From Chloroflexota bacterium (GTDB lineage Bacteria > Chloroflexota > Dehalococcoidia > Lucifugimonadales > GCA-2719675), in NCBI GenBank assembly GCA_002719675.1, contig PBID01000003.1:1-64000 (forward strand): a stretch of 64,000 bases of DNA. Reading direction: 5' to 3'. Below, in pieces: positions 1 to 2,271 of the stretch. Position 1 is the stretch's first letter. Every line of letters begins with the position of its first letter. The notes under the pieces are model-generated. The model worked only from the letters and a program-made list of their open reading frames with translations. It was not told the DNA's origin and did not search any database. A program made the translations under genes and the position numbers.

Positions 1-558
1 TGCCAAACTAGCTCCATTGTTACCAGAAGCAGAACCATCTGACTTTGTGGTCTGTACGGAAGCAGCTGCAGTGACTGTACCGTCAACTGTTACTACCACG
101 TCAGAAATAGTCAAACCAGCATTATCATCTGCATCTCTACCAGGACTTGTCAATACAAACACAGTCTGGTTATTTGTGGCTGTAAAAGTATCAGTCTTTT
201 CCACCTCACCAGCTAATATTGCAGGTGTTGTGTCATTATTAGCAGACCCACAAGTAGTTGGGATTGCAGTTCCATTTAATGGGTAATTCTGACAACCGTC
301 TTTGTTGTTTGCTGTTACGTCAGGTGTTATAAACCTAGCAACACCGCTTCTTTCAGCTGATACATCAGCATCAGCAACAGCAATAGTCACGATGTTAAAC
401 GTCTGTTTATCGGAATAATGCGTACCTGCTTCACCGCCTGTCAATGTGACAGTACCAGCAACGGCCGCATACGCTAAATCGGATTTCGCCAATGCAGTTG
501 ATGCCAACAGCATGGTGAAAACCAAAAGCGCCGAAGATAATTTTAATATTCTATTCAC
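1..558 (-). CDS. Secreted surface protein, S-layer or adhesin-like (3' end outside window)
   Basis: An uninterrupted frame of 186 codons runs from a GTG at 558 (complement) to the window edge, so the C-terminus is missing. A very strong ribosome-binding site (GAGGGGGTAGG) lies just upstream. Residues 1-24 are a clear signal peptide: N-R-I-L-K, a hydrophobic core, and an A-L-A cleavage site. The mature part is rich in Thr, Ala, Val, Asp and Asn with alternating beta-strand-like segments and two Cys (in NNKDGCQN and TTCGSAN), as in beta-rich extracellular domains. Base composition is visibly richer in G+C than the neighbours (28 of the first 60 bases). I infer an abundant exported or surface-layer protein; no specific family was recognised. 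It lies downstream of rho on the same strand but has its own promoters and leader. Confidence 0.8.
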   Translation of the reverse strand, partial: MNRILKLSSALLVFTMLLASTALAKSDLAYAAVAGTVTLTGGEAGTHYSDKQTFNIVTIAVADADVSAERSGVARFITPDVTANNKDGCQNYPLNGTAIPTTCGSANNDTTPAILAGEVEKTDTFTATNNQTVFVLTSPGRDADDNAGLTISDVVVTVDGTVTAAASVQTTKSDGSASGNNGASLA

Positions 559-584
559 TTTACCTACCCCCTCGGTTTGTGGGT

Positions 585-612
585 TTAATATGTAATTTGG
601 CTAGAGTGCCAA
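585..612 (-). promoter_or_regulatory. Candidate proximal promoter of the surface protein gene
   Basis: On the complement, TTGGCA (612-607) is followed after 16 bases by TATTAA (590-585), about 25 bases before the strong Shine-Dalgarno of the surface protein gene. The -35 element is part of a 5-bp inverted repeat, TTGGC-6-GCCAA at 597-612, which could be an operator. The match to consensus is only moderate. Confidence 0.3.
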
Positions 613-923
613 GGTTTGTTTTTTCAAAATCCTTATTAATATACTATAGTAGTGCATAAATAAAAACCCTTATGACGTACGAATTTCGACCAAACTTCTC
701 AGTTCAATCGAAAATATTACGTTTTTTTGACTATTTACCGTATTCACTACTGTCCTTTTTTAACATCTGAAACATCAAATGTCAAGGAGATTTGAGTTAA
801 TTTAGTAAACATTAACATATGCAGAGGCCAACCTATTAAGAGGGCATACAAAAAATTAAAGCACGATTTTTAACCCATATATCCCGATCAATTAACGAAT
901 ATTGATCAGAACACTGAGAAGAT

Positions 924-951
924 ATTATCGTACGAGGCCGTAGCTTGTCAA
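924..951 (-). promoter_or_regulatory. Candidate distal promoter of the surface protein gene
   Basis: On the complement, a perfect TTGACA (951-946) is followed after 16 bases by GATAAT (929-924). Transcription would start near 917 and immediately form the 7-bp hairpin at 886-907, then run through a leader of about 360 nt to the GTG start at 558. The position directly downstream of rho suggests an independent transcription unit. Confidence 0.45.
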
Positions 952-999: not shown

Positions 1000-2271
1000 T
1001 TATTTGGATTCTTTGCCCAAAGTAGCCAAAAATTCTTTGTTGGTTTTTGTCTTAGATAAAATCTTTAAAACTTGTTGAATAGCTTCTGTAGAGTTTTTAG
1101 CATCATCAGAAATCATACTAAACATTCTCCTTAGTAACCAAACTTGTTTTAACGTGACATCATCTAACAAGAGTTCTTCTCTACGTGTACCACTACGCGG
1201 AATGTCAATAGCTGGAAACACTCTTTGTTCAGCCAGGTTTCTGTCAAGATGAACTTCCATATTTCCAGTACCTTTAAATTCTTCATATATCACATCATCC
1301 ATCCTGCTTCCAGTATCTACCAGGCAAGCAGCCAATATAGTTAAGCTTCCTCCACCTTCAGTGTTTCTTGCGGCACCAAAAAATCTTTTAGGTGGATATA
1401 GAGCAACAGGGTCAACACCGCCAGACAATGTCTTACCACTATTAGGAACAGCCAAGTTATAAGCACGTGTCATCCTGGTAATAGAATCTAATAAAATGAC
1501 TACATCATTTCCATCTTCAACTAATCTTTTAGACCTTTCAAGAACTAACTCTGCGACTCTACAATGATCTTCAACAGGCTCATCAAAAGTAGAACTATAA
1601 ACTTCTCCCTTAATTGATCTGCGAAGATCAGTCACTTCTTCAGGCCTTTCCCCAATCAACGCAACCATAATTTTTACATCTGGAGAATTTTTACTGATAC
1701 CATGAGCAATTTTCTTAAGCAAGCTGGTCTTGCCAGCCTTAGGAGGAGAAACTATAAGACCCCTTTGGCCTTTACCAACAGGAGCCAACATATCCATCAA
1801 CCTAATAGACAACTCATTCTGAGCAGTTTCTAATATCATTTGTTCATCTGGATAAACAGGTGTAAGTTTCTCAAAATGCTGTCGGTTTTTAACTGAATCT
1901 GGATCTGCTCCATTAATTTTTTCTACTTTAACTAATCCGAAATATCGTTCACCATCCTTAGGAGGACGAACTTCACCATAAATATCATCTCCTGATCGCA
2001 ATCCAAATCTTCGAATTTGTGATTGAGAAACATAAACATCTGATGAACTAGTTGAAGCCCCAATGGTTCTCATAAAACCATATCCATCTCCTGTAATATA
2101 CAAAACACCTCCCATAGAAATACTACCTTCTGTCTCAGCATATTTTCTAACAACCCTATTAAGCAAAGATTCCCTTCGCTTGGAATTACTATTTTCATCT
2201 AGAACACCAATTTCTTTAGCAACATCTAGTAATTCTTTTTCGGACTTTTGCTTTAATTCATTAAAATCCAT
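1000..2271 (-). CDS. rho: Transcription termination factor Rho
   Basis: Rho is a hexameric RNA-dependent ATPase that terminates transcription. This 423-residue protein has the usual length and full domain order: an N-terminal helical domain (about 1-45), a cold-shock-like RNA-binding domain with GYGFMR at about residues 63-68, and the RecA-like ATPase with Walker A P-P-K-A-G-K-T at about 176-182. The secondary RNA-binding and hexamer regions ([21 protein letters not shown]) are intact. The start is an ATG with a GGAG Shine-Dalgarno eight or so bases upstream. It is transcribed alone from a strong promoter 370 bp upstream, which leaves room for leader control; Rho autoregulates through its leader in several bacteria. 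Confidence 0.97.

Follow-up and report, generated by a model that had tools for sequence, protein, structure and literature searches.

Base 1 of the window, a 64,000-nucleotide stretch of DNA, is also the first base of contig C3 in its assembly, and the left edge of the window is occupied by the 5′ part of a candidate S-layer canopy gene that runs on the minus strand from position 558 to position 1, comprising 186 stop-free codons from a GTG start. If the codons that precede the GTG are included, the open frame spans 200 codons to the edge, against a longest open run of 117 codons in 1000 single-base shuffles of positions 1-900. Because the contig ends at window base 1, the gene is truncated by the assembly and not by the choice of window, and it cannot be extended leftwards in that assembly (1.40 Mb in 19 contigs; 89.84% complete, 4.49% contamination), in which no further piece of the protein was found. 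The window thus holds 186 of about 1124 codons, and neither the archaeal-like module nor the C-terminal domain described below falls within it.

The start of the gene is strongly marked. The ribosome-binding site, GAGGGGGTAGGT at positions 562-573 (minus strand), forms a Shine-Dalgarno duplex of −12.0 kcal/mol, the second strongest of the 298 predicted ORFs on the contig, and the site of the ortholog in a congener ranks first of the 173 on its own contig; the 30 bases preceding the GTG are identical in the two genomes. A predicted signal peptide spans residues 1-31 (or 1-24; positions 466-558, minus strand), with the hydrophobic core within about residues 4-25 and candidate A-x-A cleavage sites after residues 24 and 31; hydropathy shows such an N-terminal signal in the window gene as well as in the congener protein and in 18 relatives. 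It is followed, on the same strand, by a first N-terminal stretch with a V.V.D.D motif that aligns with relatives (residues 32-117, positions 208-465) and by the start of a beta domain (residues 118-186, positions 1-207), which in the structure model and alignment extends past the edge in the congener. The initial annotation, which had described a GTG-initiated minus-strand frame with a very strong Shine-Dalgarno sequence and a clean signal peptide, is borne out in all three respects.

When comparing composition across the contig, Thr (14.5%) and Ala (15.1%) each rank first among the 298 ORFs, and Asp accounts for 7.5% of the fragment, in agreement with the earlier description of a Thr/Ala/Asp-rich product; the protein is acidic and low in Lys (pI 4.35 for the fragment, 4.17 for the full-length congener protein). 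The G+C content of the gene (0.434) is likewise the highest of the 298 (mean 0.340), and the excess is carried by codon position 2 (0.516, again rank 1; mean 0.356). At position 3, G+C is modestly raised in the window gene (0.296 vs. 0.228, rank 21 of 298) and is not raised in the congener ortholog (0.187 vs. 0.207, rank 130 of 173). The elevated G+C is therefore attributable to amino acid use in an Ala/Thr/Gly/Ser-rich protein. Thus, the odd composition noted initially is real insofar as the gene lies above its neighbours, and foreign DNA is rejected as its source because the excess sits at codon position 2. Bias towards C-ending codons, a weak proxy for expression, places the window gene at an unremarkable rank 48 of 298 and the congener ortholog at rank 6 of 173. 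This proxy replaced a ribosomal-protein codon reference, since ribosomal protein L2 (PF03947) was found in neither of the two assemblies, probably owing to assembly gaps, while all 14 control genomes were positive.

The congener, SAR202 cluster bacterium OSU_TB36 (VFGW01000008.1), carries the complete gene, which encodes 1124 amino acids with no stop codon soon after the point that corresponds to the window edge; given that this is a SAR202 record, the window belongs to SAR202 (Chloroflexota). Residues 1-52 are identical in the two genomes and the remaining common stretch is much more divergent, for an overall identity of about 66% over the common 178 residues. With 66.7% identity, the pair stands 14th from the bottom among 106 reciprocal best pairs, whose median is 81.4%; several pairs at that end are probably not true orthologs. 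The order of genes in OSU_TB36, named here by family, is ffh, sucC, sucD, a fumarylacetoacetase-like gene on the opposite strand, pyrG, rho, the S-layer candidate, a companion gene of 378 codons, dnaJ, prmA and rsmE, and the window follows this order up to the S-layer candidate. Its conserved upstream neighbour, at positions 1000-2271 (minus strand), is presumably rho and does not belong to the coat. On the other side of the break, contig C17 of the same assembly (62,075 bases) ends inside the companion gene, of which it retains 105 C-terminal residues (82% identical to OSU_TB36), and continues with dnaJ, prmA and onward as in OSU_TB36, such that the gap between C3 and C17 is estimated from that genome at about 3.8 kb; variable surface genes may break assemblies. 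In AC-409-J13, a more distant SAR202 member, the gene again adjoins rho, which is itself preceded by pyrG, and dnaJ lies at a greater distance.

The 441-base interval between the putative rho and the candidate gene is 84.5% identical in the two congeners, which places it second in conservation among 25 syntenic intergenic stretches that are 100 bases or longer. It contains a promoter-like site, TTGACA-16-GATAAT (positions 924-951, minus strand), of which both hexamers are conserved in OSU_TB36 and the spacer differs; the total of 4 promoter-like sites in the region is not above that in shuffles (mean 2.5, sd 1.4). Transcription from this site would yield a leader of about 360 nt. The proposed leader (positions 559-917, minus strand) folds with z = −4.0, none of 100 shuffles being as good, and the two-species consensus fold comprises 94 pairs, with 5 two-sided and 11 one-sided changes and no broken pair. 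The consensus energy is −83.8, compared with a mean of −38.6 (sd 5.0) in 100 column shuffles, which do not preserve dinucleotides, and the structure conservation index is 0.91 vs. a column-shuffle maximum of 0.68. Among 19 intergenic pairs (150-600 bases) analyzed on both strands, the whole interval reached an index of 0.86 on the sense strand; only both strands of one 98%-identical pair were higher, and another stretch reached 0.84. With two sequences compared, these observations are suggestive of a conserved structured RNA. A search with a model of 154 leader positions yielded matches at E ≤ 0.1 in 2 of 59 genomes, both of this genus; no Rfam family matched the leader at E ≤ 1, and a literature search on S-layer leaders found nothing. 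Stabilization of an abundant mRNA is the simplest guess as to its role. Elsewhere on the contig, outside the window, the stretch at C3:71650-72059 (G000; L044:7650-8059) has an index of 0.84 against OSU_TB36, and that at C3:113963-114124 (G000; L046:9963-10124) has an index of 0.99 at 98% identity.

A three-protein profile of the family found matches in 151 of the 250 genomes of the order, including 64 of the 95 high-quality ones; with no match in the other 99, the family is not universal. Some genomes carry several copies, and each of the two streamlined genomes of the genus carries one. The relatives are secreted, Thr/Ala-rich, beta-type proteins, and the 18 that we aligned, chosen from the top matches whose C-terminus is intact, all end in a conserved domain of ~180 residues, which consists of two halves with motifs such as PGWNLVSLPG and G.GYWVY. 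Searched for alone, this domain is present in 134 of a class-wide sample of 393 genomes. Pfam did not recognise it; the OSU_TB36 protein had no Pfam match at E ≤ 1, and among the 18 aligned members (E ≤ 0.01), there were weak matches to Big_13 in 9, Ig_J in 4 and Big_5 in 2, with neither SLH nor BNR/Asp-box models among the Pfam matches of these full-length or near full-length proteins. NCBIfam models gave nothing above cut-offs in the S-layer-gene proteins and companions scanned, and no relatives on viral contigs were confirmed in two scans. The usual hydropathy threshold for a membrane segment is about 1.6; after residue 45, the 19-residue hydropathy peak of the 18 proteins ranges from 1.15 to 1.77, overlapping this threshold, compared with 1.78 to 2.82 for their signal peptides.

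As judged from the alignment, the companion protein starts with a signal peptide, which is followed by two beta-type repeats and a Pro/Thr-rich stretch; a GG-C motif then leads to a hydrophobic stretch, and basic residues close the C-terminus. The GG-C motif is present in all 14 aligned companions (13 proteins and the 105-residue C-terminal fragment from the window genome), and in hydropathy profiles, each has a peak of 1.35 to 2.15 within the last 45 residues, with basic residues at the end. The same signature, that is, GG-C, a hydrophobic stretch and basic residues after a Pro/Thr-rich stalk, is found at L005:11235-12371 and in the companions in L093-L105. It has the look of a signal for sorting or membrane anchoring, although no such signal was named by NCBIfam in the nine companions scanned. 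A search with the companion gave matches in 191 of 247 genomes of the order, a count inflated by Pro/Thr-rich sequence, many matches covering the Pro/Thr-rich part only. Among the matches listed, 73 genomes could be compared: in 63, the companion lies directly downstream of the candidate gene and shares its strand, at a match-to-match spacing of 140-1314 bases (median 470), and this adjacency is absent in the remaining 10. The 73 are the genomes with both genes among the matches listed, 49 of the 122 with a listed match to the S-layer gene having no companion among the matches listed. Matches to the S-layer gene that end well before the C-terminal domain were dropped from this count, some of those kept reaching only about position 957-974 of 1021; matches from the family-profile and C-terminal-domain searches were merged for two genomes, and many short Pro/Thr-rich companion matches were left out. 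In AC-409-J13 and RHO1_bin_9, which have the same N-terminal type, no companion adjoins the gene. The anammox S-layer model NF052345 matched 3 of 8 companions locally, over ~130 positions (E = 6.1e-8, 7.4e-6 and 1.6e-3), with scores in companions (15.9-30.5 bits) that are far below the 1400-bit cut-off; three S-layer-gene proteins had no match to this model at E ≤ 1.

For the family of the candidate protein, profile comparison with the PDB points to an archaeal likeness. The best match of the 18-protein profile is 8C8K (E = 2e-7), which is NmSLP (Nmar_1547), the S-layer protein of Nitrosopumilus maritimus, a marine archaeon (PMC11153153), followed by the Ig-like adhesin SiiE (2yn3; E = 2.7e-5). 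A profile of 17 N-terminal halves (the 18 aligned proteins minus L037) matched 8C8K at E = 2.2e-6, with a large composition-bias term and the next match at 0.015; a profile of six proteins picked from the same 18 matched it at E = 2.5e-8, with the next match at 0.049, and the reversed six-protein control had one match at E ≤ 1, to a different chain (E = 0.3). The significant stretch of 8C8K, one per search, was 1534-1677, 1367-1595 or 1531-1620 of 1734 residues. The archaeal protein repeats a motif, ETG..TG.F.G, after which GD.ITV.Y.D stands in places, and a regular expression for the common module matched 9 of the 18 relatives and none of 469 other proteins encoded on two contigs; another expression matched nothing in either set (0 of 18 and 0 of 469) and was uninformative. 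The OSU_TB36 protein alone had no PDB match at E ≤ 1. A single common module does not make the SAR202 and archaeal proteins relatives over their whole length. Matches to designed Kelch-repeat proteins (8pjs, 7on7) were rejected, each being a sum of repeated weak matches.

Structure models were of limited quality. The full-length model, built from 5 sequences, was poor (mean pLDDT 43), and the three Foldseek matches that it gave at E ≤ 0.001 (two chains of 6e57 and one of 2yn3) were set aside for that reason. The N-terminal model was better (mean pLDDT 58.9, mostly 60-87 in the second half) and had no Foldseek match at E ≤ 0.001; with VIA-align, its best Z was a middling 6.9, mostly to phage tail domains, and the best 50 matches did not include NmSLP, which excludes nothing. 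The likeness, at VIA-align Z of up to 6.9, is that of the second N-terminal domain, encoded at window positions 1-207, to beta domains of phage tails. One relative (L043, 7986-8609) matched PHROG 807, a phage major tail protein with an Ig-like domain, at E = 2.1e-6; PHROGs had no match for the window protein, OSU_TB36 or L040, and a weak one for AC-409-J13 (L042; E = 0.22). The phage-tail likenesses do not decide function.

The genomic context is one in which genes for peptidoglycan synthesis are nearly absent. Among 59 genomes, the transpeptidase domain PF00905 was detected in one, the OSU_TB36 assembly itself (contig C25:1839-2612), as contamination or a real exception, and murA was above the cut-off in none, the weaker matches in 56 genomes being probably aroA-like. 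Cultured SAR202 has been reported to encode no peptidoglycan synthesis and to show, outside its membrane, a layer that recalls an S-layer (PMC10444878), sialic-acid genes have been taken as a hint of an S-layer in SAR202 (PMC5395668), and SAR202 genes have been named slaA and slaB (PMC11994032). Published work already includes both the idea that SAR202 has an S-layer and the annotations 'slaA/slaB', with no sequences in the text consulted; in the literature searched, mostly open main texts, we found no described sequence of a SAR202 S-layer subunit.

Several known systems invite comparison. In Sulfolobus, the canopy protein SlaA (1424 aa) is combined with the membrane anchor SlaB (475 aa) (PMC10903991), that is, a large beta-rich secreted protein with a smaller one that has beta domains, a stalk and a C-terminal membrane segment, and the OSU_TB36 pair (1124 and 378 aa) is alike in this respect. 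The two differ in that the stalk of SlaB is a coiled coil, whereas that of the SAR202 companion is Pro/Thr-rich; SlaB has three beta-sandwich domains, compared with two beta-type repeats judged from the alignment; and the companion, unlike SlaB, has a GG-C motif before the hydrophobic segment. The SAR202 pair is likened to SlaA/SlaB by architecture, not classed as a member, and a similar mode of action is the likeliest by this analogy. NmSLP and the SAR202 protein appear, in profile comparison, to have in common the Ig-like module with its motif ETG..TG.F.G ... GD.ITV.Y.D, and both are rich in acidic residues and poor in Lys and Arg (PMC11153153 for NmSLP); however, the similarity is limited to about 90-230 of 1734 residues, and the overall architecture and the C-terminus differ. 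Dehalococcoides mccartyi, of the same class, likewise has a wall of S-layer subunits without peptidoglycan (PMC6646388, PMC11994032), but its S-layer protein is annotated differently, as a BNR/Asp-box repeat protein (PMC6646388), and the SAR202 relatives, which have no such Pfam models, are set apart from it by annotation. The likeness to the anammox S-layer glycoprotein Kustd1514 (NF052345) is local and confined to the companion, at 30.5 bits at best vs. 1400. Finally, the slaA/slaB of PMC11994032 likewise come from SAR202 and imply an S-layer of two parts; the text consulted names these genes without sequence, locus or architecture.

Taken together, these observations argue that the gene probably encodes the canopy-forming subunit of an S-layer in a SAR202 marine bacterium. 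The suggestion that it specifies a major surface or S-layer protein of its lineage is supported by the full-length relatives, the archaeal module, the companion and the near absence of peptidoglycan genes: that it is a surface protein is right, and that it is an S-layer protein is probably right. Because peptidoglycan genes are nearly absent, a two-part S-layer working like the archaeal SlaA/SlaB is the best reading. In such a coat, the signal peptide would direct the canopy protein, which has no clear membrane segment after it, to export by the Sec pathway, and the beta-type, partly Ig-like domains would pack into an acidic two-dimensional layer. The conserved C-terminal domain, or another part of the protein, may dock on the companion product, a step suggested by the gene pairing and architecture and held with less assurance than the identity of the canopy itself; the companion, with beta-type repeats, a Pro/Thr-rich stalk and a hydrophobic C-terminus, would hold the coat off the membrane. 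The strong ribosome site and the long structured leader would give high output, and, peptidoglycan genes being almost absent from these cells, the coat would act as their wall.

Other readings of the locus have to be weighed against a canopy subunit. The protein might instead be an adhesin, large, secreted and Ig-like, or a surface protein of the receptor type, in either case forming no lattice and having the companion as its membrane anchor. In favour of this are the weak Ig-like Pfam matches in part of the 18 members, such domains being common in adhesins, SiiE as the second match in the 18-protein PDB profile search and again among the Foldseek matches of the poor full-length model, the fast divergence past residue 52 and the multiple copies in several genomes. 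However, the best profile match in the PDB is an S-layer protein, the family is widespread in an order nearly devoid of peptidoglycan genes, and each of the two streamlined genomes of the genus has a single copy, so we consider an adhesin unlikely. Less probable still is a minor role in an S-layer built chiefly from some other protein that has gone unrecognised: the 99 order genomes without a match, whose existence implies that some SAR202 relatives must use something else, would be compatible with this, whereas the protein's size and composition, like its strong ribosome site and the structured leader, are in keeping with abundant production.

That the contig end is foreign to the genome, through contamination or misassembly, or that the frame is not a gene at all, might be suspected from the position at a contig end in an assembly that is 89.8% complete with 4.49% contamination. 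The same gene order, the identical 30 upstream bases and the 84.5% identical intergenic region in an independent congener assembly make this highly improbable.

Beyond the canopy subunit itself, a wider scenario can be put forward, although as a whole it is rather doubtful: SAR202 cells would be walled by a two-part S-layer whose canopy has Ig-like modules in common with the S-layer of marine ammonia-oxidising archaea and whose Pro/Thr-rich membrane stalk has a C-terminal signal of its own. Marine archaea and Chloroflexota may have exchanged the module, perhaps along with the archaellum, and synthesis of the coat in this genus would be set by a long, structured leader of the mRNA. SAR202 bacteria are abundant in the ocean and seemingly lack peptidoglycan, and a concrete gene pair makes the question of their S-layer testable, through peptides in cultures or metaproteomes and through the structure of the lattice. 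A defined coat would also open to study the receptors of their phages and the anchoring of the bacterial archaellum.
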